From Hysterium pulicare CBS 123377 (taxonomy: Eukaryota; Ascomycota; Dothideomycetes; Hysteriales; Hysteriaceae), in contig AJFK01000280.1 of NCBI GenBank assembly GCA_000467715.1, positions 1 to 46,402 of the forward strand: 46,402 nt of DNA, read 5' to 3'. Position 1 is the stretch's first letter. Every line of letters starts with the position of its first letter. This document shows, piece by piece, positions 3,628 to 39,056 of the stretch. The notes under the pieces were generated by a model that saw only the letters and a program-made list of their open reading frames with translations, did not search any database and was not told the DNA's origin. The position numbers were made by a program, and so were the translations under genes.

Positions 3628-6600
3628 TACTTATTAGATCAATGTGAAGATAGGCTATGGTGTTGTCCGCATGTAGTTGAAGATGGAAGTTATGTCTGAT
3701 CAGTGGTGGAGATGGTGAGAGACGAAATAGTTTCGTAGGGAGTCCAAAATACGAGGCCATGGTAAAAGCTGAGATCTGGGGCCTTATATCCCACCGAGCT
3801 GGGTGGCAGAGGGTGCACGTTCACCACGCTCCCGCCGCCAACCATGCCAAAACAGAGGCGGACGTGCAGGCGGTACCTCTGAGTCCATGCCACCCTGGCT
3901 GCATTTGCTACGGGGCGGGGTGGATGTTGAGAGAGACCGAACGCCTTGGAGCGGGCTCTTTCCAACGCTCGGGCTTAGGGCGTGGAGAGCTACCGCTCAT
4001 TCACCATGCACTCGCATGCACCCGGTGTGTCCGAGTGCATACGGTGGCTGCATGCTTGCAAGCTCCCCTCTTCTACGTTCTTGTCAAGCTTTGACTGTCT
4101 ATCAGTCTGCAGTGACAGCAGGGTACGTGCAGCATCGCGCTGGGGTCAAAATAACGCTTGGAATCAGCCCCAACAGCGTACCTTCTGACTACACGATCTC
4201 GAGGCATTCTGGAGCTTCCGCCCCCGGCCAAAAAGAAGGAAGAAACCTAACCAACTGGCATCCTGTCTCGGTGCCATCATTTCCCCCGCGGTCCACTTCC
4301 AGTTGAGTTAAGACTGGGATGTATCTTAGTTCAGGCAGGAAAGACAACCCTTCACCCCAGACGAAGTCTAATGCTCCTCATTTCCACCTGTCGGGTTGAT
4401 TCGTGTGCTGACGGCAGATGCTCCAAGCATTATCATGCTGTTCCGCTGGGTACTACTGTATGTATAGCTGCGGAGTCTATCAAAGTCCCTAATCGCCAGC
4501 GGTTTCTGGCCATGCGGAATGCCAGCTTAGCAGATCCTTACTCCCGAAGTCAGATTTCAAACCGAATTAACCTCAGAACCACCAGCCCTACTTGTGCGAA
4601 ATTGATCTAAAGCCTACGATTTCGCTGTACGTTTCTCCCGAATATTGCGTGGGAGAAGAATGTATGCATCAGGATTCACGATTCAAACGGCAAAGACATT
4701 AGGGATCAATAGAACCTTCTCCATTATTCCAAATCACAGCTTCGCAAGTCTCGAGAATGGCGACTGATGGATGTTCCCCTGACCATGTTCATTCAGATCG
4801 CCATGCCTCAGATGAAGGCTGTCAAGGAACGTAGTCAGCACTTATACATTCCGGGAAACGAAACCCCCCGTGTTGCCCAATGATCAGCTCCAACCGTAAC
4901 TTTACTCGTCAACCTCTGGCTGGATCCCAACGCACCGCCAATGCTTTCCCGTGCGTATCATTCAGTCTCAATATTCGTCCTTCTAGCTCAAATTTGGGTT
5001 TGGAACGTGCAATGCCAATCGGTGTGTAGGCCCGCTCAACCCCCCACTCCAACCCCATGGACGAGGGGCCAACATTTCGTGGACCCTGTTGTCGTTCGAA
5101 GCTGCTTCTCTGCTCACCCATATTAGCCTAACATTTCCGCTCGTACCTGTCGACAAAGGCATATCGACCCGAACTTAGAAGGCAACACTCTACGCACGTG
5201 TCGCCAGCTTGGTGTGTGGTCCAAGGCACCAGGCGAGTCCGAAACGAGTAGTTGATAAATCTATTTGTAGCCACTCAGGCGGTCTGAAATCTGCCGGGGA
5301 GAGATTGTGAGACGGGGGAGAGTCGGTCGCGTCAGCTAAGCAGATTCCCGTTGGCCGGAGCACTGGACGCTCCCGTGACAGCGGGCCTTCCAAGAAACGC
5401 TATTCGCACCTCACCGTCACAGTCAAGAGCCTCAATTTTACTTTCGTATTCCAAAGATAGACTTGTAATTTCTATTCTAAAAGCTCTATTCTGGAATCCA
5501 CCATCTCGGAAAGAGAAGTTTCCTTTCATGTCGCAAGGAGGAGCTTTCCATTCTGGTGCTAGCAAATGCATCGCCAACCCTCCCCTTCCCGCACCGAACT
5601 TGTCTCTTGGTAATAGCGCGTCCGGCAATAGTACTTGTGTTATGCGTCTCTAAATGGTGTTTGCATGCATAATCGAAATGGCCCCTCTAGCTTGTGCGTG
5701 GTTCTGGAAGCCTGCCCGTTTTGCCTACCATGCAGCGTGGCTGCTTAACACGCACCCGCTTTCTAGTAAGATCTCAATCTCATGTTCTGCAACCATTTCA
5801 TGAGCTTCATTCCTTGACCTTTTCTTTGTCTTTTGGACTGTTTAGTCGCACTGGTAGCTGTGCGCTAGCCACCCATCAAGTGGGGATGTGCAAGATTAAT
5901 TTTTAACATTAGGAGGAAATTATTTGGGTTCCACTTCCTGGATTGAAAGCCAAAAACCCGCAAGGTTCAAGGCCCGATGCCGCATGAAACTAATGGTGTG
6001 AACTTGTAGTATGGTGATGCCCCATAAAGGGGAGCAAAAGGACTGTGACCGCGTTGAATCCACATAGGAGCCCTCGCCTATCCCTGAAGCGAGACATTCT
6101 CAAGCAGCAGAAGCGGGAGCTGGCCCGCAAGGCTTCGTTCTGAGTGATAAGGGATTGTCCGTAGAACCACTTGATTCGTTGCCATAAGAAAGCTACCGTG
6201 CTTCCCGAGATTGTCCATCGGTCTGAAAATACAAATGCAACTCGCTGAACGTCCAAAAGGCGTAAAACTTGATACGGGTTGTGCAGCCCTATTCATAACC
6301 GACTGACGAACGGTCGAACTTTCATTCCGTCTCATAGTATCATCACGCCACCGCATTATCTTCGTATGCTAGAATCCAATAGATCTCCTCACGGTGCGCC
6401 CAAGACTCTTCTGAAAATTACGGTATACAATCAACCTTTTCCCACGTGTCTGCGGAGGTTTTTACGGATGACTAGCATGCCGTGCATTCTCCACAGATCA
6501 GGGGGTCCATGTGCTTGTCTTCCCTGCATGACCAGCTACCCAGCCGGCTTTGGACATAGCAAGACACGGGTGGGTCTACACCTACCATCTTCTTTACCAC

Positions 6601-6866
6601 CAATCTACAAAGCCGATTTGGACTCTGGGAAGCGCATCAAAGCCATTTGCCATCCTTCAGGTCAGTCAGAAAGTAGCTATGAAACAGCATCTGGGACGCC
6701 TTCACTGGTTATAGAACTCATTCTCACCCACTCTACGCAGCATTTCTCAAGTATCATATTGTTCGTACCATTTCCAGTTTCCATGTCGTATCGATTGATC
6801 TTTCGAGGAAGTTATAAGAGAAGAACTGGTGCGCTATTCAGCAATCCCCGTATTAAACCATTGAGC
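3628..6866. other. Gene-poor intergenic region
   Basis: About 3.2 kb between the bZIP promoter and the 3' end of SEC21. The first few hundred bases (3628-3800) must contain the bZIP promoter. The rest holds only overlapping short open frames on both strands, with no recognisable family, no tandem repeat and no transposon termini that I could see. Base composition looks ordinary rather than AT-rich, so this is not an obvious RIP-degraded transposon island. Confidence 0.45.
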
Positions 6867-12784: not shown

Positions 12785-12931
12785 ACAACCAATAAACCAC
12801 GCCCTTGCCATGAAACCATAGTATTCTGGGGAGCCCATCAGTCCATAGAATGATCATTGGCTTTGATAGGAGCCTCATCGGAAAACGCCTGACTATCGGA
12901 ATGAGCACATAGTAGGCTCTGAAAGCAATGC
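12785..12931 (-). pseudogene. Intronless relic of MAT1-1-1 alpha-box gene
   Basis: On the same strand as MAT1-1-1. Positions 12841-12916 match 31506-31581 of the MAT1-1-1 second exon at 69 of 76 aligned bases by my count. The similarity continues less strongly down to about 12785. Translated, it reads [20 protein letters not shown], against MAT1-1-1 [20 protein letters not shown]. At 12916/12917 the copy passes directly from second-exon sequence (agtagg) into first-exon sequence (ctctgaaRgcaatg). The 49-nt alpha-box intron present at 31582-31630 is absent, and its removal is base-exact. The first-exon similarity fades within about 20 bp, the reading frame is lost on both sides, and many of the substitutions change amino acids, so this is a non-functional fragment. 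A processed (cDNA-derived) copy or a precise intron loss before duplication would both explain it. Confidence 0.85.
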
Positions 12932-13198
12932 AGACTAGTGCATTCCCGATCCATATTCGGACAATGTGTTATCTTTGAGAGAGTGACGACGTTGATGATC
13001 TGTCATGGTCTGACCGGGCGCAGTGGCACCAGTGACATCGCTGCCATGCTTGTGGCGAAATTCAGTTGGTGAATGCTTGGCTGCATCCGGCACGGTGTTG
13101 TTGGAACCGTCAAACCTGAAAAGTCGAAAGTGAGATGAGAAAACAATGCATTAGGAAAAGATAACAATATGGGTCGGGAGGGCTGCGGCACAGGCAAC

Positions 13199-14595
13199 CT
13201 ACTGGCCATAAGTCTTGTTGCCACCAACGGTTTTGCTCTGATCAAGATCAGAGTCAACGCGAGGATCAACCTTGTTGAGCATGTCGGACTGCAAAATATC
13301 AGTGAATGAGGTTTGATATAATGGATTATGTCCATGAGAATTAACACACCTTGTGTGGACCAGCAGTGTTAGAGGCAGGGCCTGGAAGGTTGCTGCCGAT
13401 TCCAACACCTCCGGCCTGATTATGGCCGTGTGTGCCGGCACCTTGTTGACCGTAGCCTTGATCGTAGCCTTGGCCTGTGGTAGATTGTCCTGTAAGACCC
13501 TCATTTCCATAGCCTCCAGTGGTGTTACGTCCCGTAAGACCTTCATTGCCATAACCACCTGTGGTTTGACCAGTCTGGCCAGTATGATGGCCGCTGTGAT
13601 GGCCAGTCTGGCCGAGTCCGCCAGTTTGACCGAGTCCGCCAGTGGTAGATTGGCCCGTCGAGCCTTCGTTACCATAACCTCCTGTGGTTTGACCAGTATG
13701 ATGGCCAGTGTGATGGCCTGTTTGGCCGAGTCCACCTGTTTGGCCGAGTCCGCCAGTGGTCGATTGTCCTGTCAGACCTTCGTTGCCATAACCTCCGGTG
13801 GTTTGACCGGTATAGCCGGCGTGATGTCCGGTGTGATGGCCAGTTTGGCCGAGTCCACCACCAGTCGTGTTACCTGTGGAGCCATATCCGCCAGCACCTC
13901 CACCGACCATTGGGTCAAGTTTGTTGGCTGGTAATCATTAGCTGAATCCCGTTTGATTGAGTGGATACTTACCAGTTACAGTTTCGTGAGGCCCGCCAGG
14001 TGCGTGGTGGTGGTGACCAGTGTGGCCAGTTTGACCAGAGAGTCCTTCACTGCCAAAGCCGCTCGTCGTTGAGTCTCCAGCAGAACCAGTCTTCACACTC
14101 GGGTCCAACTTGTTCAAGAGGTTGCTGTTGTGAGGTCCGCCCGTTGCGGTGTTTTGTCCTGTAAGACCTTCGTTACCATACCCTCCAGTCGTATGGCCGG
14201 TTGAGCCGAGTCCACCGGAAGCCTGTTGGCCCGTAAGGCCTTCATTGCCATAGCCACCGGTGTTGTGACCAGTTTGGCCGATTCCGCCAGTCGTTGAGTG
14301 TCCTGTAAGACCTTCATTGCCATGGCCCCCAGTCGCATGGCCGGTTGAACCTAGTCCGCCGCCCGTTGTGGAATGACCACTTGACACAGTGGGGTCGGTC
14401 ACGTTTCCTAGTTGGATTAGTTGAGGAGGCGGGTCAAGGAGTGAAGGGTTTCTCACCTGCATGGCTGGAGTGAGGACCTCCAGTGGCCGTCTCATGATGG
14501 CCGGGGTGGGAAGTACCAGTGTGGGAAGTGGTTGTATCAGTGTTAGAGGTGTCCTTGCCGAGAACCTGCTCAACCTTGGCCTTGATTTTCTCCAT
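13199..14595 (-). CDS. Dehydrin-like (DPR-motif) glycine-rich stress protein
   Basis: Model: complement(join(13199..13288,13350..13927,13973..14407,14457..14595)), 413 aa, four exons, all phases consistent. The protein is extremely hydrophilic and low in complexity. It is built from repeats of GGYGNEGLTGQSTTGG and GLGQTGHHTGHHTG and lacks a signal peptide or membrane segment. Spaced through it are Asp-Pro motifs resembling the DPR motif of fungal dehydrin-like proteins (DprA family): VTDPTVSSG, LNKLDPSVKTG, ANKLDPMVGGG and LNKVDPRVDSD, the last near the C-terminus before NKTYGQ. Such proteins protect against osmotic, oxidative or freezing stress, and that role is inferred here. Each Asp-Pro motif lies near an exon start or end, so the exons look like duplicated modules. 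A CATAAAAG TATA-like box lies at about 14739-14746 on the coding strand. The reverse strand of the repeats is open for 193 codons, which is a composition artefact. Confidence 0.88.
13400..13905 (-). repeat. In-frame coding repeats of the dehydrin-like gene
   Basis: The third exon consists of diverged copies of units coding for GQTTGGYGNEGLTGQSTTGG and GLGQTGHHTGHHTG. Unit number and order vary, and the shorter GGLGQTG block is doubled in places. This points to unequal crossing-over within the exon, and copy number is likely to vary between strains. Similar units occur more sparsely in the second exon (13973-14407). Confidence 0.85.
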
Positions 14596-16660: not shown

Positions 16661-17313
16661 GAAGCAAACATCCCATCATTACTTCATCGTAGGAAGGGCG
16701 CACAGGGAAGCTTCTGCTAACGCTCGTGTTATCTAAGCCAATGTCCGGATCATCCACACTGTGCCTTTGAATGCAATTACAGATAGCCTTGGAAGCCCCT
16801 TATAAGAAAGGTAATCTGGTTGGCTGGGATTGAGCGGGGCAGCGACAGGATGCATGTGGTGCCATTACGGGGTTCATACACTTTCAACACCTGCGATGAA
16901 AGAACCGGAGTCACTGCTACAATTCCGGCACCTGCTTTTAATTTATTCAACCTTAGGAGGTTGACTAATTCTGACCATGGGGTGCATAGGACTTCACTTT
17001 TAAGCATATATCTTTAATTCATATCGTTTTCATAGTCTCTCATGAGATGTGCTCAGTCCGTGTACATGTACAACACTAAGAAAGGGACATAGCCCTGCGC
17101 TCGTTCATTTAGGTTGTGGTTCAGACTTTAAGACCTTTCTCAGCTGATACATTGGTAGGAAGTGCGGTAGCTTTTTCGGAAATGCAAAGCCTCCAAAATT
17201 ATCTTTACAATCCTTTGCATCAAACAAACGGACGGAATTCGCGAAATTACTCTCCACATTAGCCTGTCATTCTATGCGTTTAATATGTCCCTCAAAACTC
17301 CTCAAGCATTTTT
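16661..17313. other. Convergent intergenic region
   Basis: 650 bp between the 3' ends of the EI24-like gene (+) and the PNPOx-like gene (-). It should contain both 3' UTRs. No repeats, RNA genes or coding sequence were recognised. Confidence 0.5.
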
Positions 17314-22568: not shown

Positions 22569-23993
22569 ATGGCGACCAGTACAAGGGTAATACCAAGCAC
22601 TCCCTACTCGCTAAAATTTCATCATGCTGAGAGCCTCAACAGAAGCGGAAACGAAATGTCGTCCTTCACCAGGGCTCCTCGGTCAATGGTGATTTGGATA
22701 CCTCGAAACCCTCCGCGGTTTTCCAGCCATCAAAAGGGAGACAATACACTTTAAGTGTAGCTTTACCAGGCAGCATCATTGCAAAGTATGTCAATCCCAT
22801 CACCTTCTTTAGAGACCCTCACTTCGGTTCATCCTCCCAATCCTAGGTGAAGCTAATGCGGTAATGCTAGTGTCATGACATATGACTTGAAAATGGTGTT
22901 GGCCGGTCGAATTGCACGCGCTTGCGCTATGTTTTGTGTTGATGAAGTCATTGTTTTCGATGACGGTCAATTTCAACCAGATCCCGCGAAACTGATGAAC
23001 GCCCTCAGCGACAAATCTTACAAAGGTAATGCGACCGATTACTGGAGTAAGCTTGTAATCAAGCAGAAAGCACAAATCGCCGAGAACGATGAGCCTTGGC
23101 AGAATCCGGATCAATTCTTATACCACATCCTCAGTTATCTGGACATGCCTCCACACCTGAGAAGACAGCTCTTCCCGCAGCATCCAAATTTAAGAGGAGC
23201 GGGCATGTTGCCGAGTTTGGACATGCCACATCACATGCGACCGGATGAATGGTGTCAATATCGAGAAGGTGTCACCATTGATAAAGACTTTGCGGAAGCT
23301 TCTTCGAATGCTTCATCACCACCTGGCCACCATTCTAAGAAAGCCAAGGGGAAAAGCGGGGCTAAGATGAAAGCAAATACACCTGCCTCATCTCTAGTAG
23401 ATTGCGGCTTGCCTCATCCAATTCGGATTCCACAGAGCATTCCACCATTTACGCGCGTGACGCTCAAATTCTCGACAAACGACACCCCTCCTTCATTTCC
23501 CTCCTTATCTGCCGCGGATACCGACAGATTAGATGCAGAAGCAGTGAACCCATCAGCACCAAGGGAAGAAGCTGGGTATTATTGGGGATACACAACTCGA
23601 CGGTGCACATCTCTATCTGATGTCTTTACCGAATCTCTTTACGAGGATGGCTACGATGTCTGTATCGGGACCAGCGAACGGGGCGTTCCTCTATCTACAG
23701 TTCTCCCCGACAAGAGCACAGCCTCTGCGCCTTCCCTCAAACCTTCGGCCAGACTACCTAAAGAATTCAAACACCTTCTTGTAGTCTTCGGTGGGGTTGC
23801 CGGACTTGAGGCAGCCGTCGCTGCCGATCCCGAATTGGCGAAAAGAAGTATCGGCAAGCATAATACGAGCGAGGCCTTTGATGCGTGGGTCAATTTGGTT
23901 CCTCGACAAGGAAGTAGGACAATCCGGACAGAGGAAGCTGTGCTGGCGGGCCTAATGGGGCTGAAGGAATATGTGGACAGCATGGAAGATTAG
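22569..23993 (+). CDS. SPOUT-class RNA methyltransferase (C9orf114/SPOUT1-like)
   Basis: Model: join(22569..22586,22643..22785,22871..23993), 427 aa. The last exon is secure; the first, 18-nt exon (MATSTR) is inferred because an in-frame stop lies upstream of the KRKRNVVL segment. The domain opens with YTLSVALPGSIIAN, then LKMVLAGRIARACAMFCVDEV IVFDDG, the signature of this family. It continues with FLYHILSYLDMPPHLRRQLFP and GMLPSLDMPHH. The C-terminal trefoil-knot part contains KHLLVVFGGVAGLEAA, where the S-adenosylmethionine site is expected. A lysine/alanine-rich insertion lies near residues 205-225. Family members are linked to RNA methylation and, in animals, to kinetochore/centrosome functions; the substrate here is unknown. 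Confidence 0.9.
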
Positions 23994-25970
23994 AGTCCAT
24001 CTTCACCTTCAACTTCTCTTTGTTCAACTCTTTGACATTTCGCAACCGTACACACCCTTGGATGCTTGGGTTGGGGTACTCTGATGTATGTAGCGGGTTT
24101 TGGGATCGGAGTGTCTACGTAAACCTTGTCAATGAACTGAGCATTATGGTATTTCATACACGTCCTCAGACGGGTCCCACTCATTAATAGCTTTTCGTGG
24201 CAAAAACGTGCCTTTAAACCCTGTTACCGTACTGTCATCAAATTGTTGCGGAGCAGGCCCATATTAGTAATTGCACCCTACTCTCCTAGATGCCTTCCCC
24301 TCTACTCAACGCTCATTGGTTTCGACAGAAGTTCTATCAGGGAGCCTTTCAATATCTGAATGAATACATAGCAAGACACGTTGATCAGGCAAGGCATGAG
24401 AGATTACTAAAGCTAGGTTCTGTGCTTTCTTTTTAAGACAATGAGACATAGCCCATGCCCCGCCTTCTATCCTCATTACTCTCGATCCCTCACTTCGACC
24501 CCTCGTGCCTCTTATTACGAGCTCAAAACAGCTCTTATTGTCACTCTTCCGCTACGTCGATCGTCTTACCGATCTGTCCCTCGACGCTCTATCTTCTCTC
24601 CGCATTGTCGTAGACTGTACTTGCAAGATCCGCACGCCCGGCGATCCTCCCTAGCTGCATATCTTCTCACCTATTATGGAGAGATGTTCCGTGATCCAGT
24701 TATAAGCACGATTTCAGTTCTACTTACCACGGAGGGGTGTTGCGTGTCCCCCGTTGAACGAATTGTTTCCTTCCCCTGATTGTCTTGGGCAGTACCTCTA
24801 ATTCAGGTACATTATGTTTGCTTCCTTGGTTGCATTCGCTTTCTCTTTCTACTCATCATGAAATGGGGTTGTAAGTCTCCTTTGGATGCGACGGGTTCCT
24901 TCTTTTGGTTGATCTGCGCAGAGAAGTCCTCATTTATAGGTGGTAGCGTTGCTTACTAAGGCCAGTTAGTGGGCAGCAAACCAGGAAGAAGGCTTGCTGA
25001 ACTATCATACCGAAGCAGAATTTGGTAATTGTTTCCTGGTAAGTACCTACCCGAGTTAGTAATTGTCATCAAATGTAACTTTATTATATCTTGGTTGAAA
25101 AGGCACATAACAAGTCACTTGATTAGTGGCGTTGTCTTGGCTCGGTGCAACGCTTCCCCGTGTCGTCATTTGCCTACCCATGCCTTTATGTAAAACTTTT
25201 TAGTAGGGGGAACAGGTCTAGCAAAGAGCATGATGTTTTGTTGAAGGCAGAGGGCAGATGTGTGCTGAATCCGAAGAGCTTTGTCGCGGGTGTCGTCAAC
25301 CCGATCTTGTAAAGTCTCACTAGGTTGAGATCGCTATTAGTTACAAGAGTTTCACATAAGGCTTCAAGAAAGTAATTGATCTTATATCTTTCTCTAAACC
25401 TAACCCGTAATTGGAGACCGCCAGCGGCGAAATGTTTATAATTTGGCCAGTGTCTCGGCGGGAAGAAATAAGACATTGTGGTTTGATGAACTTCTATCGC
25501 AAGCTTAGCTAAAGGCTCTGAACTTAAACGGCTAAAGCTAAAGGTGACGTGGAAGTGATGAATAAATGCTGGCTATGATCACACAATGTTGATTCTCTTG
25601 GTGTAGGAGCCGCAGAATCGATCTCCTTTTTAAAAGAGAGGGCGTGTGTCCACATGCTGTGGCTCGTCGCAGTCACAATAGCACTGAAGTACTGTGATCG
25701 TGGAATGCTTATAAAAGGCACCAGAGGTACGCATACAACGATTATTAGGATTCGTAGAAGAGCCAAAATGGCCATAGATTACTTCCAAACAGAGATAACA
25801 AGAGAATTTCGATGCGCCAGTCTGGAGCTCAGAGCAATATCCCAGAGTCTTGAGGTGTATACATGGAGTTTGCCGAAGAATAGAATAGAGCCTGGGCTTA
25901 TTCTGACAAGCGAATTTGCTCTTAGCAGATCTCATTGATTCTCGATCTGGGGATGAGAAGCTGCGAAAAG
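23994..25970. other. Gene-free convergent region
   Basis: Nearly 2 kb between the SPOUT gene (+) and the SSF symporter (-), both pointing inward. Only short overlapping open frames occur. No repeats, tRNA or transposon remains were recognised, and the composition looks ordinary. It may mark the left edge of MAT-linked sequence, but nothing in the sequence proves this. Confidence 0.45.
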
Positions 25971-28435
25971 CTAAAAGAATTTACCAGTGCTTTTCACGTC
26001 TGAAGTAGACCCCGTGATCATGTCGCGGTCAACGTCGTCTATTTCCCCATCTATTCCGGCCTCGTTTGAGTAAGTAGCAGGGCGATCAAATGCATCAAAA
26101 CGATGTCCTTTGATCCGAGCGACGCTAAATTGGACGATGATTCGGAATATGAAGGCTGCGGAAGCCCATAGGATTCCACCGACAGGTGCAGCGACGAAGG
26201 CACCTAATTCGAGTGAGTAAATGCATTTTTCTAATTTGATGTGGTTCCTCAAGATACTTACCGAACGCACTCCAGTCGTTAGCGTAGAGTCCACCTTCCA
26301 ATAGGATCAATTTTCCAGCTTCATCCGCGTCTCCGTGATAGTAGACCAAGCCGAAGAGAAAAACCGTAAGAATGCCTCCCAAGCCACCAACCACAACTTC
26401 AAAGCCTCGCAACCAATAGAAACGGTCCGATAGTCCGAGTACCAATACAGGAACAAGTGCGGCACTCACTAGGTCGCTAATGAGATAAATCTGCAGTATA
26501 TCCGGGCTCTTCAATGCAACCACAACGACAGGGAATATGATGAGCACCACAAAGCCTCGGATTATCCACAGGTTGATCTTGTTCCGGAATATATCATTGC
26601 TGCCAGTACTGATCATAGCGCTCTGGAAGCTGTCGAAGGCAGCGGTGCTAAGAGAGACCACCATGACAAGCACGATGCCCACTACCCAAGCAGGAAGCTG
26701 CCCAAGAAGAAGAAAGAAAGAGAGGTATCCATCGTCAGCATCATTTAGTGACCAAGCGCCTGACCATGCCGCGAGAAGGCCTGTGCTCCCAACAAGAGTG
26801 AGAATGATTGTGACGGCAACAGTGGCGATGATAACACCGATCCAGAGATCTTTATCAGTGCGGGAGGCAAATGTTCGAAGCCAAAATCCCTGGCCTCATG
26901 TTAGTGATATCGCGCACTGACTGCGAAGGGATACTTCATCGCAAGAATCGAGATTACTTACAGAAATGAAAAAGTCGTTAGTCAGAATGGCCACAGGTAG
27001 AATATATACAAGCTGCCACCCCAGCAAACTTGATTTGAGGAAGCCGGACTTGTCAATCAAACTCCGATCGATATGCGTCTCAACTCCAACACTGATCACT
27101 CCCAGGATGATTAGACCAACGACCATCGCGCCTTGAATATTGTCCGTCACGAACGACACTCGAAAACCGCCAATTGCTAAGCGCCTTTAGTAATTGTAGC
27201 TGGACAGGAAGTGAAAATTCTCATACCGGTGTAAATGCTGGTAACAGCACATTCCACAATGACGGCGGGTAGCCCATTCAATCCCGTCAGCGCATTCACA
27301 ATTTGCTGCAATGCTGAAAGCTCCGCGACCATGTACAGAAAAAGAGTAATAAGTCTGATCTTATCAGTATCGACTTACTATTCTGGTTGGTCAAGTCAAT
27401 TACTTACGTACAAAAGCTAAGAAATAAAGCGGTAATCGCTCCATATCTTTGTCGAGTCCACTCCGTAAGAACAAAACCTTGTGGGCATTTGCGCCTGATA
27501 ATAGGGCCAAGAAAGCCGAATACCAGAAGCGGCAAAGACGATGAAAGTGCATACACTACCAAGCCTTGTACTCCGCAGATGGTTGCTATCTCGGGGTAGG
27601 AGAACAAAATACCAGAGCCGAGAGCTGTTGGGTGATGAAAATCTGTGTCAGCTTCTAAACCGTGAGAAAGGATGAATGGTAACAAGGAAAAGCGCGGCAG
27701 CACGTTCCTCACGCAAGCATTATCTTGATCGAGTCTTTACGGTGCTTCTCAGCTTCGCCCAACGAGGGTCTGGAAAAACATTGCAATCTTTTATGCATGC
27801 TCATTCCAAGATCCATGTAGGCTCAGCGCCCGTAGTGTAGCCGCACAGAATTGCTCATTCACGTTTCTGCCATGCGCACGATCTCGTGAACGCATGGCAT
27901 CAGCCGTCGACGAGTCCTATCCTGTGAGAGATCGAATACGAACCTGGTAGACGAACTTGCCCAAATTACACATAGAGGTACCTCCAATGCTCGGTGCGGT
28001 TGCCTTTCCGGCCTTCCCTCTGTGAGGGTGCTGATGTGATTCCGCTGCTGCCGCTGCCGCTGGTATTGAGTTTGGTGGTTTTATTCGACTACTCACCGGA
28101 CGCTATGAAGTTAAGAGCGAGCGGAACACCTATTTCCAATTAGTCAACACTCCTTCGAGCTCAAATTAGACTTGAGTTTGAGATGAAAGGGCTAAGCGTT
28201 TGAACGCCGCCCTTTCTAGAGGCTGACCCTTTTGTGACTTATTGCTTGATAAGTACTCCAATTTCGATTGCTTGCGCAGACGCCACGCTATAAGGATACC
28301 TGTGATCCTGCAATCTCATGATGTTAGCTTTCAGTCTTCATTAGGTCCATACTTTCAGAAGCGTGCGACAGACAGGAATGCCCCATAGGTCAGGTAGATG
28401 ATAGCATTTGAAGCTTGGGTCGATGGCACACCCAT
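25971..28435 (-). CDS. Sodium:solute symporter (SSF/SLC5) family transporter
   Basis: Model: complement(join(25971..26203,26262..26889,26962..27176,27227..27354,27408..27624,28097..28129,28228..28307,28374..28435)), 531 aa, eight exons in phase. The first membrane helix is YLTYGAFLITGILIAWRLR. It is followed by SNKSQKG|VPLALNFIAS|ALGSGILFSYPE, which joins three small exons. Further helices include LVVYALSSSLPLLVFGFLGP, the TLITLFLYMVAELSAL segment, IQGAMVVGLIILGVISVG and LGWQLVYILPVAILTNDFFI. The core helix motif VMVVSLSTAAFDSFQSAM matches the conserved SSF region. The C-terminal tail is acidic and cytosolic. The substrate cannot be told from sequence. The fifth junction removes an unusually long intron (472 nt, 27625-28096). 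The gene immediately borders the unrecognised MAT1-1 gene, 478 bp away. Confidence 0.9.
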
Positions 28436-28912
28436 TATGAAATATCTCGAAGAATAGTTTGAGGCGAGCCGAATAATCCTGGAATTATTAAGTGAGGTGA
28501 AGATGTTAATGTGTACGTGATCGTGAGTGCGGGGACTCCGAGGTGTCTAAAAGTTTCTTCAGATGACGCACGGACCCTCGGCTACAGGCGCTTTCATCAA
28601 TTTTTTGCTTTTTGAATTAGTCCGGGTGTAGGAAGCGTTTAGAGAAAGCTTGTTGATGATTACTGTATCATCAGGGACCTTGGAGTTCTGGTGATAGACT
28701 GGTACTGCATATTAGGGTGGGGCACGGCGTCCTTTAGCAGCATATACCTGGGAAGTACTATTCCATATAGTATTTTCTGATCAACCTCAAGGACGGCAAC
28801 TTGATTTGATGCCTTTCCCAGAGCCCAAATCGGTTTTGTAGGCTGATGGTAAAGAAAATGGTTAGCTCAAACCTACCCTCCGAAAACGACAATATCATAG
28901 CCCAAATAGCCC
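28436..28912. promoter_or_regulatory. SSF promoter and 3' flank of the MAT1-1 gene
   Basis: 477 bp between the start codon of the SSF transporter and the stop of the upstream minus-strand gene. It must contain the transporter promoter. No specific element was identified. Confidence 0.45.
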
Positions 28913-30261
28913 TCATTGAATCGCCGCCCAATCCTCGAACATCTCTGAGAAGTCAAATTTATGGGTTGGAGATCTTGAAGGCTTGATTTCAGATCTATAT
29001 TCCCACAAATTAAATTTGCCATCACCACCCGGATACACAACTTCTTCCTCATCCCTCATTTGGTCTGCGCAGGCATTAGCATTATAGTGTCGCGTACTGT
29101 ACTACTAGATTTGACTTACGAGCTCCTCTGTTCAAGTAGAAGAGGGGTATTCCAGCAAGGATACCCTCCTCATGGCGCTTATCACTCAAGAAGTCATTCG
29201 GAAGGGGCCTTTTTGGAGCATATACCTTACGCGCATTAACAGCAAAATCACCAAAGAACGTGAGGATAGCTTACACTCCGGACAATAGTACGGTTACCAC
29301 GGACTGAGTTATATGTATAGGCTCCGCCAATCTTAGGGCACTAGAATAAACGTATTAGATACATCCCCCAAGAAGGTGTTGTTATGGCTTACGTTTTCCT
29401 CAAATTCTTGGAGGAGTTTCTCTGCCTCCTCTTTTTGACCTTCCATCTCAATCTCCTTCTCAAGAAAACAAGGATTAATATTGAATGCCGTAGGGGTTTA
29501 TAGTTCTCACATACCTCTGCGACTTCTTCAGCAATCTTCTGATCACGAGCAAGGTGCCTCTGGATTATTGCCAGAGCACCCTTCGGTAGGTATTGCACAA
29601 TGGCCGGATCGCTGGACTCGTCTTCCCCCGCTGTACGCTTGAACTCGAGGGCTGGATGCATCTTGGTTGGGTAGATCTTGTCCAGAGGCTTGTTTGAGAG
29701 GAACTGTTGCCATGGTTTAATGCCGGGTCGGAAGCCAGCTCGAATAGACGCGACATCCTCAGCCCGACTACGGGTCCCTTTGATGGCCATGCTGATGGAT
29801 CTAACGGTATATTTTGTCTGTTTGCAGAACATTTCGGCTTCAGCCTCTGTCTTGAAGAGCTCTTCTCCATGCTTCAGAGCATGACACGTGCGCAACACCT
29901 TGTCGAGTGCAGAAAGGGCCAGGAAGCTCTCATGTGAAGATGGATCATCATCGTCTGAAGTAGACTGGAAGTATCCACAAAGCAGACCAAGGCACTCGTG
30001 TATAGTATTGAGAAAACTCTGGTCGACGTTGCGCACGACACGTTTGTTCGAGCCTAGGTTTCATTAGCTAGGTAAAGTCATCAGCAAGATTCTTGTCTGC
30101 TTACGATCGTACAGAGCACGACCTGGGTGTTTGCTGAGCTTTCCGACGCTTTCGATGATTGAGCTGATTCGAGGATCTGGTTGTGCAGAAAAAGTCATCT
30201 CCTCGACAATGACTGGAGGGTGCTCACTCCAATTTTCGACCAAGATCATTGGTGTCGCCAT
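28913..30261 (-). CDS. Unrecognised MAT1-1 locus protein (MAT1-1-5-like candidate)
   Basis: Model: complement(join(28913..29064,29120..29225,29275..29340,29393..29458,29515..30053,30105..30261)), 361 aa. Six exons, two of them only 66 nt, are all in phase, so the gene looks intact. The start MATPMILVENWSEHPP was chosen; an in-frame ATG at 30384 would add 41 residues. Visible segments: SKHPGRALYDR near residues 41-51, a helical middle part (LNTIHECLGLLCGYF, ALDKVLRTCHALKHGEELF), a charged helix KEIEMEGQKEEAEKLLQEFE, and CPKIGGAYTYNSVRGNRTIV. The C-terminus is FSEMFEDWAAIQ. It has no HMG box, alpha box, signal peptide or membrane span. It lies 373 bp downstream of MAT1-1-1 on the same strand, where leotiomycete MAT1-1 idiomorphs carry accessory genes such as MAT1-1-3, -5 or -6. 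It is not MAT1-1-3. The HPG tripeptide recalls MAT1-1-2, but I cannot establish homology. The first residue of exon 4 and the third acceptor (29458 or 29455) are the weakest junctions. Confidence 0.75.
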
Positions 30262-30634
30262 CCTGTCGGATAAGGGAATGAAGTTTAGAGGGATCCAGTG
30301 GGGGGAGAATTCGAGAGTGTTTACGCAACGAATCCCAAAGGCGGTGAAAATGCTTCGGTAAATACCTGTTATGAACGTGCACATGCCATTTTACCAAGTG
30401 TCATTCATCACCTCGATGAAACTTCACGACCCCTCACCTTGGATACCTTCACCTCCAGTAGTTAAAGCGTACCAATGATAATATGCTACCGAGAATACGT
30501 CAACAAGATGCCCCCACCACAAGTAAGTAATAGAAGCAAGTATGTATGGTAGACGTGATCAATTTTGAAATTTATTACGATACAAGAGAATCCATCCATT
30601 CATCCATCCATCCATCCATCCATCCATCCATCCA
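30262..30634. promoter_or_regulatory. MAT1-1-1 3' flank and downstream gene promoter
   Basis: 373 bp between two co-directional MAT-locus genes. It contains the microsatellite next to the MAT1-1-1 stop (annotated separately) and presumably the promoter of the downstream gene. If the downstream gene starts at 30384 instead, only 250 bp remain. Confidence 0.45.
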
Positions 30635-30636
30635 TC
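30591..30636 (+). repeat. (ATCC)n microsatellite
   Basis: About eleven tetranucleotide units of tccatcca type with one interruption (catt near 30598-30601). On the coding (minus) strand it reads (GGAT)n and begins inside the MAT1-1-1 stop codon, so it forms the start of the 3' UTR. Length variation would alter the UTR and potentially the last codons. Confidence 0.95.
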
Positions 30637-31844
30637 AGTACATATCCTGGCTTCCATTCCAGTCCACCATATCAGAGAAGTCTTCATTCGTAGGCCGGAA
30701 CCATTGCTGCTCAAGAGCAGCAGCGAGGTCTAACTCTGACTCCTGTGGAGGCATTTGTTGAGTTGGCAGATTCTGTGTCATTTGATCAGTAGCATCGTCT
30801 TGGTTCGATGCGAGATAATTGCCGAGTGTCCACCTGAGCTCATTGTAGAAATCGTTGTTGTCGTCTGCCGGCCCAGACTCTTGGGTAGAGCTCTGCTCTG
30901 GTTGGGGCAACGGGTCTGGCAAGGGGGCTGATGCTTCGTCGAAGGCAGTTGGCATGTTGAAGTCGAAGAACTGGTCGTGCGTGTCTTCAATCTGCTCTTG
31001 CAAGGCCACGATGGGCTGAGGCTCTTCTCGATTCTGTCGCTTGGCTCGGCGTTGCTTTCGCGCAGCAACGCGCGCATCGTGAATTGGATCTGCAGCCTGC
31101 GTCATGGTCTCGATTGCTGAGCTCGTTCCGACGACCATGCTGAGAGATTCTCCAGAAGGCACCATCGGGGATTGAGACACTGCGCCGAAGACGTATCCCA
31201 CAGCATAGCCAACTGACTGGCAATGACGGATGATGTCGTCAACAGACATGGTTGTAGTCGCGGATGAAAGTCCAAGAGATTCCGGTGTAGGTGTGAATAC
31301 GCGTGCGAGACTTGGGACGTCATTCTCGTCGACAGTGACTTCCCATCCCATGAGCTCAAGGTATTCCTCTGGAGTAGGAATTCCGAGAAGTGGACAGGTG
31401 ATTGCGAGGAATCGGTCAAGCGGCGCCGCATCCCTACCGAGCTGGTCTCGAATGCTGGACCACGTCTTCGCCACGAGAAACCATAGTGCTCTGGAGAGGT
31501 CATGATTCCATAGAATGCTCATTGGCTTTGATAGGAGCTTCATCGGGAAACGTCTGAGTATCGGAATGAGCACGTAGTAGGCTGCACAGATTAGCCGAGT
31601 TCAAGTGAGACATTGCGAGCTGAACTTTACCTCTGAAGGCAATGTAGGCATTGAGGGCCTTCTTGCCCTTTGCAGAAATGATTGCACGACCGCTGACAAT
31701 TGGAGGTGCGTGTAGGAGGTGTGAGGTCAAACGTCTTCGAGCCTCCAGGTCTTGGATGGCGCTCAATAGTTGGCTCATCTGAGCACCAGTGCGGGTGGCC
31801 AGGAAGTATTCAACCTCCCAAGGTTTGAATTTGGGTGGTGCCAT
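30635..31844 (-). CDS. MAT1-1-1: Mating-type protein MAT1-1-1 (alpha-box)
   Basis: Model: complement(join(30635..31581,31631..31844)), 386 aa. One 49-nt intron falls inside the alpha box, the position conserved across Pezizomycotina. MAT1-1-1 is the transcription factor that sets mating type and drives pheromone and sexual-development genes. The alpha-box region spans about residues 55-200: [19 protein letters not shown], then [52 protein letters not shown] and LMGWEV. This order (KxxLNAxxAFRxYY, the W of the ILW segment, RDQLG, FL...CP..GI, LGW-like) is that of known alpha-box proteins. The C-terminal half is Ser/Gln/Pro-rich and ends [18 protein letters not shown] element at about 31976-31985 lies some 130 bp upstream of the start. 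Its neighbours APN2, COX13 and APC5 are the standard MAT flank. Confidence 0.95.
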
Positions 31845-32399
31845 TGTGGAAGTGACTCGAGTTCTTTGTTTTCAAAAGTTGAAAGGGGGTGTACGGTTGC
31901 GAAATGTCAAAGAGTTGAACAAAGAGAAGTTGAAGGTGAGGTGTCTTAGAGCTCGGACAAAGAGAGCGGAGGAAGAATATATAGGGTGGGTGGCTGGGCA
32001 ACTGAGCGCCAAGCCTTACTATCAATTCACTTGCGATATACACATTCACCGCCAAGACTTGAAAAGTTTGCGGCTGATACCAACTGAGTAGGAACAATAT
32101 TAGAACCATTATCTTCTTACAATGCAGTCTATACGAGACTGGTAACCGTAAAATTTCCTATCCTTACCTATCCCTATTTGGTCAACGACTGTGGTGGTGA
32201 CATACCTAATAACTCACTGCTCAACAGCCAGCAGCTACGCTACTGTGCGTAGGAAAAAGGATGCTGTTGGATTATATAGTAACTTATCGTTCTTCAAATT
32301 CACCTCTCTTTCCCTCACTTGAAGTCTCGAATCCAGCTCCGTTCTCGCGTTGGTGGAGGTGCTTGATCCCTGGCGATGAATAATATCCCTCGGCGCTCT
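31845..32399. promoter_or_regulatory. MAT1-1-1 promoter region
   Basis: The 550 bp upstream of MAT1-1-1 before the repeat array begins. It holds the TATA-like element near 31976-31985 on the minus strand. Open frames of about 100 codons on both strands (31789-32109) overlap this promoter and show no recognisable family. Confidence 0.5.
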
Positions 32400-36875: not shown

Positions 36876-39056
36876 TTACGATGCGCTTGGACTAGCCCAA
36901 TCGCTTGCCCAGATGAATGTGCCACATCGCCATTGCGTTCCGCGTTCTTTCTGACCGGATGGACCTAGAGGTCTGTGACGTAGAATTAGTGCCAGCAGAA
37001 CAAACCGGTGGACATAGTAAGGCCCAGCAACCACATCGCTGATGGAAGGAACTTACCTCGGACAGATCCAGAACTGCCTTCCACAATTGGCTCCCGGCTT
37101 TTTCGTGGTAAGGCTGATGCATGGTTCTTCATGTCCCTCACAGCGAGGAGGCGGTTTTTTGGTAAACAACTTCGTCCAGGACTCTTTCGAGACAATAGGG
37201 TCGACAAACTTCGTGTCTGATTCCTCAGATGTAAGTGAACTGACGCGACGAAATGGTGATCGAGAGACCTTGGTTTCAGGTGTGCCGGAAACTGGGGATG
37301 AATTGTTCATCCCGAAAGAAACCTGGGAAGCATTGAGCACGCTTGATATAGGCGTGGATTGTTCAAGGCTAGCCCTGGTATTATTCGATTGGGTCTCGAG
37401 GGTCTGAGAAATGCTTGTGTTAGATGGCTGTGAAAGTGCTGGACCGGCTTGTTCATCAATGGCATCTCCTTTGCTCGCCGTGCCATCGGTATTTGAAGAA
37501 GCAGTCTTTGTTTGGAAAAAGCCTTTCAAGGACTGCTGACCTTTCGATAGCGTAGGCACGTTGGAAGTCTTTGAAGCACTTTTGCTCCGCTTTGCTGGTG
37601 CTCCAGTCGATGAATCTTTCGCTCGACGCTTCTCCGGAGACGCTAGGGAACTAACGTCTGAACGTGCTGTAGAGGGCGCGAAAGAACCTACTTCCTTTGT
37701 GGCATCACTGGCATCCAGAGCGTTCGTCACTCCTATACTCCCCTTTTGAGAAGACTCTACGGAAGTCGCAAGCGAGCTCTTGCTAGCAGGGAGAGAAGGC
37801 TTTCTGGTGAACATATCTTTGATACTTCGCCTTTTGTCGAACTCTGGGAGTAGCTTCCCAGAGAAAGAGGGCAGATCCCTTGTGCTGTATTCTCTCTGTC
37901 GGACCCCATCCTTGAACATGCCTGGAGGATTCATGATGTCTAGAATGTTGACGCGCTCTCCTCGCACATCTACTTCCTCCTTCATGGTAGCGTAGACTGG
38001 GCAATGATCAGATCCCTACATCTGATGTTAGAATCGGATAGTGAAAGAAGTAGTCAATCCAACGTACCATTAATCCTTCTTGAATATTCGACTCTGAGAT
38101 CCAGCTCTTCATTTCGATACTGCAGAGGACATAATCAATCCTAGATCCAAAATTTCCGGGACGAGCATTGATCTTCTGCTCCCAGTGAGTATACATTCCA
38201 GTTCTTCCTTCGTGGAATCCTCTGCAAATGTCCCATAGGACCGGTTTTTCTCTTTCTTCGTCCCTCTCACCGTAGACCTTGCCTCCTTCCAGCAATTGGT
38301 TGAAGAGCCTTCGATTAGGGGAGTTGAAATACTCTTCACGAGTTATGCCCTCTTTCGCCATGTGATCTTCCGCTTTGGCGGTATCGATCTCTTCTCTAGA
38401 CACATTCAAGTCTCCCGTCAATATGACCCTTTTCCCCATCTTCTCCAAATTCCGTATTCGGGTATCAAGAGCGGTGATGAATCCGTATCGAAAGTCATCC
38501 CTCAAACCGTTACTATTTGCAGGGCTATAGACTCCCAAAATAACGAAAGCCGGAAACTCCAGTACTACACATCGTCCTTCTGCATCAAGTACCGCTGGAT
38601 CAACTCCAAGATCCGCTATTTGCAGAGTAGATGGGTATCCACCAATGCAGGCATTTTCTGGAAGATCACGATAGGGAGTGGAAGAATCGGGTGGACATAG
38701 AACGCCCAGTAGGCCCTCTTCAGCGCGGATAGGTGCACACACGGATTGGCGGGTGTATATTCCAACACCGGAGTATCCTATGACGAACTGTTAGTATGAT
38801 GAGAAACGCTATTTGTTGGAATTGAGAAGTTTGTACCCTTTTTGTGTTTGGGAAGGCTGAAATAGCAATCCCATCCGGGAACTAATACCATATCATCTCT
38901 CAGGTCCTTTCTCTGGATTTTAAGCTCCTGCATGACGACTATATCCGCCTCCAAGATATCGAACATGGCGTTAAAGGTCTTGCTTTCCCTCCATGGCTGA
39001 TAGCTAAATGGATTTCGAATGCCATTTACATTCCATGTCGTGATACGAATCCCCAT
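36876..39056 (-). CDS. APN2: AP endonuclease 2 (class II DNA-(apurinic) lyase)
   Basis: Model: complement(join(36876..36972,37057..38015,38068..38777,38837..39056)), 661 aa, four exons in phase. The ExoIII-like endonuclease/exonuclease/phosphatase domain opens MGIRITTWNVNGIRNPFSYQ. It has the metal-binding Glu in VVMQELKIQRKDL, then GYSGVGIYTR and the GDLNVSREEID motif. The sequence NFGSRIDYVLCS follows, and the catalytic SDHCPVYA is restored by the 52-nt third intron. A long, Ser-rich, low-complexity linker (about residues 340-590) contains a PCNA-interaction box QQSLKGFF. The C-terminus is a GRF zinc finger: PRCEGHEEPC...GRQFWICPRPLGPSG...QWRCGTFIWASDW. It repairs abasic sites and 3'-blocked ends. 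APN2 is a standard MAT-locus neighbour in ascomycetes. Confidence 0.97.

Follow-up and report, generated by a model that had tools for sequence, protein, structure and literature searches.

The window analysed here is the whole of contig C219 (46,402 bp), from an assembly of 37.2 Mb in 596 contigs. Its mating-type gene, MAT1-1-1, lies on the minus strand, where a coding region at 30635–31844 specifies 386 aa and is interrupted by a single alpha-box intron of 49 nt (31582–31630, minus strand, GTAAAG...CAG). The spliced protein matched PF04769 (the MAT alpha1 family) across the exon junction (residues 26–201, E = 1e-41). Sequence from 30606–31939 on this strand is represented among pieces dispersed through the genome, and these positions are taken as the presumed limits of the transcript. 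A second gene, at 37053–38790, gave an Exo_endo_phos match together with a sub-threshold GRF zinc-finger match, and is presumably of the APN2 type. A MAT1-1-1 gene with such a neighbour would suit a Pezizomycete, for example a Dothideomycete. A GGAT/CATC microsatellite (30594–30637) stands directly at the MAT1-1-1 stop codon and has been carried into the pieces on contigs C543, C76 and C218.

A fragment of MAT1-1-1 without its intron was found at 12796–12933, also on the minus strand. Read from 12933 to 12796, it aligned with positions 354–493 of the spliced MAT1-1-1 mRNA, that is, the end of exon 1 joined to exon 2 sequence; 119 of 140 columns were identical and there was one 2-nt deletion. 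The 49-nt intron was missing to the base. On the exon 1 side of the junction, 15 of 17 nucleotides agreed with exon 1 and 5 of 17 with the 3' end of the intron, and none of 200,000 random 17-mers equalled the former value. The intronless fragment described in the earlier note is confirmed. The BLASTN comparison with the MAT1-1-1 region that the note had suggested, performed here as a self-comparison of the window, matched 12796–12918 to 31459–31583 (84.8% over 125 bp, E = 5e-33), and the figure of about 91% over 76 bp was borne out by the best 76-bp stretch (70 of 76, or 92%). Parent and fragment do share a strand, as had been stated, and are 18.5 kb apart (31459 to 12933); the extent of the fragment required a minor correction, from 12785–12931 to about 12796–12933. 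An early local alignment had reached further into exon 1, up to mRNA position 180, but this extension was dropped, because it falls within the predicted coding end of the adjacent host gene (see below) and is probably due to chance.

Since the intron was removed exactly, a cDNA-mediated (processed) origin is the simplest reading of the fragment. It is not, however, the lone, very rare and MAT-linked retrocopy that had been envisaged. A search of the whole assembly with MAT1-1-1 returned at least 27 matches, the gene itself included, and realignment of the fetched regions to the spliced mRNA produced at least 32 alignments besides the gene. At E < 1e-3 there were at least 29, the fragment among them, and three others (E = 0.037–0.13) were left out of this count; the genome searches score the best candidates only, so that copy counts and absences alike are bounds. 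These pieces were located on nine contigs (C219, C39, C447, C543, C376, C591, C582, C218 and C76). Their identity to MAT1-1-1 was 75–98%, the exceptions being two decayed pieces in the window (about 70%) and one 20-nt match (100%), and the fragment, at 85%, was among the more diverged. An assembly artefact was rejected, given that the pieces mostly differ from the gene by 2–25% and have different flanks. PF04769 had three matches in the genome, corresponding only to MAT1-1-1 and its pieces on C582, which upholds MAT1-1-1 as the source rather than another alpha-box gene.

Among all dispersed matches found, no alignment outside the gene touched the intron (31630–31582). Similarly, when the flanks of MAT1-1-1 were used as queries (7.2 kb downstream and 5.2 kb upstream), the non-transcribed flank was not represented among the matches found. 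These queries recovered the ends of known pieces, i.e., C543 as far as 30606, and C39 and a window piece at 24003–24059 up to 31939. Their remaining hits were to C140 (one, at 73%), to local repeats and to a dispersed repeat. Two control queries, of 8.7 kb (the APN2 to CIA30 region) and 5.1 kb (the COP-gamma and lipoyl synthase region), 13.8 kb together, each matched only themselves and disclosed no dispersed copies. With matches confined to the transcript and the controls bare, the scattered DNA therefore corresponds to the MAT1-1-1 transcript, and the scattering is particular to it within this small control. An ordinary DNA duplicate of MAT1-1-1 that lost its intron through chance deletion would also be intronless; a 2-nt repeat (CT) at both intron ends makes such a deletion formally possible, and the exon junction is crossed by 12796–12933 only, which is therefore the one piece that tests splicing directly. 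Yet the removal is exact, and neither intron nor non-transcribed flank occurs in any of the matches found, and this explanation is scarcely credible. The pieces are very probably derived from mRNA, in agreement with the processed origin first proposed. We consider it likely, with rather less assurance, that the fragment at 12796–12933 is a non-coding relic of the spliced MAT1-1-1 mRNA and one tile of a genome-wide set. The earlier note thus probably identified the origin of the fragment correctly and mistook its nature, which is that of a tile of dispersed MAT1-1-1 message.

The window contains further pieces. A well-preserved part of the MAT1-1-1 5' UTR occurs at 24003–24059 on the plus strand (mRNA 62–118, 98% identical), 9 nt past the stop codon of a putative RNA methyltransferase gene on the same strand (PF02598; 22857–23993, plus strand). 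Two decayed pieces lie at 16872–16977 (plus strand; mRNA 107–205, 69%, score 188), 211 nt after a same-strand stop codon, and at 25161–25329 (minus strand; mRNA 932–1096, 67%, score 296). Scores for decayed pieces were judged against the best of 30 simulated windows (157), and two possible pieces on the minus strand are tentative on this basis: 24308–24375 (mRNA 371–438, 69%, E = 0.13), whose score of 151 is just under that value, and 25091–25148 (mRNA 1141–1198, score 137, E = 0.037). The edge of the first of these, at 24375, corresponds to the MAT1-1-1 splice junction or to a point within 1 nt of it. Pieces seem to be over-represented on the MAT contig. That the pieces here, with the decayed ones at 16.9 and 25.2–25.3 kb included, would exceed the 0.12% of the genome that the contig represents could indicate a trace of an earlier position of the MAT locus, as had been suggested for the fragment, or of an old idiomorph. 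Against this, the fragment consists solely of spliced transcript sequence and is placed at the 3' end of another gene, and equivalent pieces occur on eight other contigs; this explanation is very unlikely indeed.

Placement relative to neighbouring genes followed a pattern. The fragment at 12796–12933 adjoins the predicted last exon (12935–13115, minus strand, modelled from ORFs) of a gene for a glycine-rich repeat protein, and begins 1 nt after the predicted stop codon on the same strand (12937–12935), a position that depends on a predicted intron of 87 nt (13116–13202, minus strand, GT...AG); no Pfam match was obtained among the scanned ORFs of this gene. Eight isolated pieces were considered together: the two in the window (12933–12796 and 24003–24059), one each on C39, C447, C543, C591 and C76, and C582:58591–58472. 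The last is a MAT1-2-1-like stretch, described below, whose start is known only from a Pfam match, and the other seven derive from MAT1-1-1; the clusters on C376 and C218, the MAT1-1-1 tiles on C582 and the decayed pieces were excluded. In all eight cases a same-strand stop codon overlapped the piece or preceded it, at distances of -5, 1, 9, 14, 45, 46, 88 and 309 nt, where -5 denotes the overlap. The hosts, as modelled from ORFs and Pfam and not from transcripts, comprised a DUF7892 protein, the glycine-rich gene, the PF02598 RNA methyltransferase, a GNAT acetyltransferase, CK2 beta (PF01214), MCM2, a helicase (PF00271) and a RIO-domain kinase (RIO2), and seven of the eight had Pfam domains.

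Under an ORF-based null taken from the same loci, six of the eight pieces were no more than 100 nt from the stop codon that ends an ORF of 110 aa or longer (null 0.077, p = 5e-6). When the ORF was required to reach 150 aa, five of eight qualified (null 0.032, p = 1.6e-6). Omission of the MAT1-2-1-like piece gave five of seven (p = 5e-5) and four of seven (p = 3e-5), respectively. The window piece was not among the six because the last exon of its host is short; it qualifies only through an ORF outside the predicted host frame, and the count is therefore given as six and not seven. The excess weakened when distances of up to 320 nt were allowed, as the null then rose to 0.22 (at least 110 aa) or 0.095 (at least 150 aa). 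As an antisense control, no opposite-strand ORF of at least 110 aa had its stop within 320 nt of any of the eight, the nearest being 363 nt away (C543), and none of the eight was inside an ORF of at least 150 aa. This test was framed post hoc, with the data already seen. Furthermore, several of the sites look like gaps between converging genes, which tolerate insertion, and some enrichment is therefore to be expected without any special mechanism. Even so, we think it likely that the pattern, in which isolated pieces lie in sense orientation within the presumed 3' UTRs of host genes, is real, with exceptions.

The exceptions are three clusters that do not clearly follow the stop-codon rule. 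The pieces on C218 occur in both orientations and have no clear host gene; the region concerned (C218:23962–25491) contains internal direct and inverted duplications of MAT1-1-1 pieces and might form a weak hairpin. The two MAT1-1-1 tiles on C582 are situated 1.7 kb past the GNAT stop codon and antisense to a hexokinase gene 255 nt away, and no same-strand ORF of at least 110 aa was found within 860 nt of them. The tiles on C376 occupy one strand; they start 241 nt beyond a short ORF and extend to about 2.6 kb from it, and neither strand has an ORF of 110 aa or longer that ends within 400 nt of them. A reverse-transcriptase match (C376:4480–4806) lies on this contig, about 17 kb from the densest fragment cluster.

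The MAT1-2-1-like stretch, C582:58591–58472, resembles an HMG-box (Pfam 22.9 bits, below the cut-off) and lies roughly 14 nt beyond the GNAT acetyltransferase stop codon. The MAT locus of this genome, by comparison, carries MAT1-1-1. The DNA around it, used as a query, found only itself in the assembly. Among the other HMG matches, the translations inspected, on C376, C353 and C107, resemble ordinary HMG genes.

When the dispersed pieces were arranged along the spliced mRNA, 26 of them covered positions 62–1346, from the 5' UTR to the 3' UTR, without a gap and at a mean depth of 1.9. This analysis used 26 of the 29 pieces, omitting the decayed window pieces (16881–16971 and 25203–25312) and the 20-nt match. 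Where pieces of the same lengths were placed at random, none of 20,000 trials fully covered the region 62–820 with its 13 pieces, and cover of the whole span was reached at a frequency of 0.0001 (20,000 trials); the simulation assumes independence between pieces, an assumption that clustering may violate. The tiling was nearly single-copy in the 5' half of the mRNA, while the 3' part was present in several copies. In a chain of 14 pieces of our choosing, reaching mRNA position 1048, neighbours overlapped by 29, 42, 23, 28, 16, 124, 18, 14, 14, 9, 18, 17 and 16 nt, with the tiles on C582 and C376 accounting for overlaps of 9–18 nt. On C582, two tiles are still in order, 61 nt apart, and have an 18-nt repeat in common; on C376, the pair 804–959 and 944–1048 is separated by 227 nt and has a 16-nt repeat. 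The piece on C591, ending at 369, and one on C582, ending at 370, both stop within 1 nt of the splice junction. These edges are at C591:32808 and C582:56888, though 12796–12933 crosses the same junction spliced.

How an mRNA came to be distributed in this way may be approached through the marks that insertion leaves. Like processed pseudogenes of the LINE type, the pieces consist of spliced sequence and include parts of the UTRs; unlike them, they are internal, short and not anchored at the 3' end. The earlier note had advised a search for poly-A remnants and target-site duplications, and neither appeared in the 25-nt flanks of 18 pieces: no A-tract was seen by eye, and the longest word shared between flanks averaged 3.8, compared with 4.3 in shuffles. 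LINE-type (target-primed) retroposition is therefore not supported, although the loss of the intron would agree with it. Instead, reverse transcription of MAT1-1-1 mRNA may have yielded cDNA, pieces of which became incorporated at the 3' ends of host genes. In the likeliest route, the reverse transcriptase would have switched templates between MAT and host mRNAs, and the chimeric cDNA would then have recombined with the host locus; subsequently the pieces would have drifted, and some would have been rearranged into clusters. Template switching followed by recombination would account for sense orientation, spliced sequence, clean edges, and the absence of poly-A and of target-site duplications. 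The genome had three matches to reverse-transcriptase domains and four Argonaute-like matches above the family cut-off, so that reverse transcription and RNA interference are possible in principle. Random switching alone does not, however, predict gapless tiling, and a purely spliced source does not explain the piece ends at 369 (C591) and 370 (C582). Template switching is accordingly put forward as a tentative proposal.

Gapless tiling and short overlaps are better explained if one full-length processed copy of MAT1-1-1 landed once and was shattered, its shards being dispersed by rearrangement. In a variant, reportedly the model published for Cercospora, the ancestor would have been homothallic and the copy a fusion of MAT1-1-1 with MAT1-2-1. 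The nearly single-copy 5' half, overlaps of 9–18 nt on C582 and C376 such as staggered breaks leave, the neighbouring tiles kept in order on C582 (61 nt apart), the C376 pair 227 nt apart, and the MAT1-2-1-like HMG stretch that is also on C582 all agree with shattering. It does not predict sense placement just behind stop codons, however, and one copy would not be enough, since the 3' part of the mRNA is present several times. Shattering is a possible but doubtful explanation. If the pieces are truly spliced, tile the whole mRNA and lie in sense within host 3' UTRs, their origin becomes testable, and the pattern would favour RNA-templated insertion at gene ends over random shattering alone.

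The pieces look like non-coding relics that have changed while the gene itself was held. Over 25 pieces, coding mismatches numbered 50, 48 and 61 at codon positions 1, 2 and 3, not different from equal thirds (chi-square about 1.85), and the fragment at 12796–12933 had 6, 7 and 6. Overall, 104 mismatches were transitions and 63 transversions, and several pieces contained indels. Near-even mismatches and indels are expected in the absence of coding constraint; the piece on C76 was an exception, with five of its seven mismatches in third positions. These observations bear on whether the pieces have been kept for a function, in which sense MAT stretches in host 3' UTRs could place host mRNAs under the same RNA interference or antisense control that acts on MAT1-1-1. 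Such a function would suit the sense placement behind stop codons and the four Argonaute-like matches above the family cut-off, and fragments of this kind are termed 'expressed' in the accessible text of one citing paper. It does not suit the near-even codon positions and the indels, nor the inverted pieces on C218, whose arms are only 31–35 bp and whose duplex energy (-196.7) improved little on the best value among 20 shuffles (-185.8). Retention for function is improbable. Hairpin silencing from C218 was rejected separately, the arms being short only. A related and bolder reading combines capture with control: the MAT1-1-1 mRNA would have been taken tile by tile, in sense, into the 3' UTRs of ordinary genes through an RNA-templated process directed at the ends of transcribed genes, and the host mRNAs could be co-regulated through RNA interference or antisense RNA. 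We regard it as unlikely, but were it true, a set of host mRNAs would carry pieces of the mating-type message. Placement in host 3' UTRs, if true, would also account for fragments being reported as expressed.

Scattered mating-type fragments have precedents. In Cercospora, Bolton and colleagues are said to have described fragments at apparently random loci that can be assembled into MAT exons, and reportedly attributed them to retroposition in an ancestor that was homothallic, followed by homogenisation. The Cercospora set is reported to include fragments of both MAT1-1-1 and MAT1-2-1; the present genome has one MAT1-2-1-like stretch, below the Pfam cut-off (22.9 bits). According to the accessible text of the reports, MAT exon fragments occur in Cercospora beticola (Bolton et al. 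2014, Fungal Genet Biol 62:43-54) and MAT gene fragments in Mycosphaerellaceae and Teratosphaeriaceae (Aylward et al. 2022, Mol Phylogenet Evol 171:107456), dispersed fragments being published for Cercospora and Pseudocercospora (Bolton 2014; Aylward 2022). The likeness to C. beticola, so far as that text goes, lies in MAT exon fragments scattered through the genome of a heterothallic Dothideomycete. As in Cercospora and Pseudocercospora, the fragments occupy several places outside MAT1 (here at least 29 matches on nine contigs) and are exonic only (here with no intron match outside the gene, and with the junction crossed by one piece). Truncated MAT1-1-1 in the idiomorphs of Sclerotiniaceae (PMC10569646, accessible text) is similar in that MAT1-1-1 fragments exist besides other MAT genes, but it lies within the MAT locus, whereas the spliced-sequence pieces here are outside it. 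Dispersed MAT fragments are thus already known in related fungi, while their tiling and 3' UTR placement may be new: the titles and abstract openings of the literature searched contained no description of either. A 2026 paper, in its accessible text, calls the origin and function of dispersed MAT fragments unknown. Three published Cercospora primer sequences had no close match in the window, with 3–6 mismatches at best.

Finally, the window contains a dispersed repeat of about 175 bp, at 28730–28903 and 6584–6680. Among the matches listed for the query 23500–30700, 37 of 41 were this repeat on other contigs, at 72–85% identity. As a guess, it could be a short interspersed or introner-like element.
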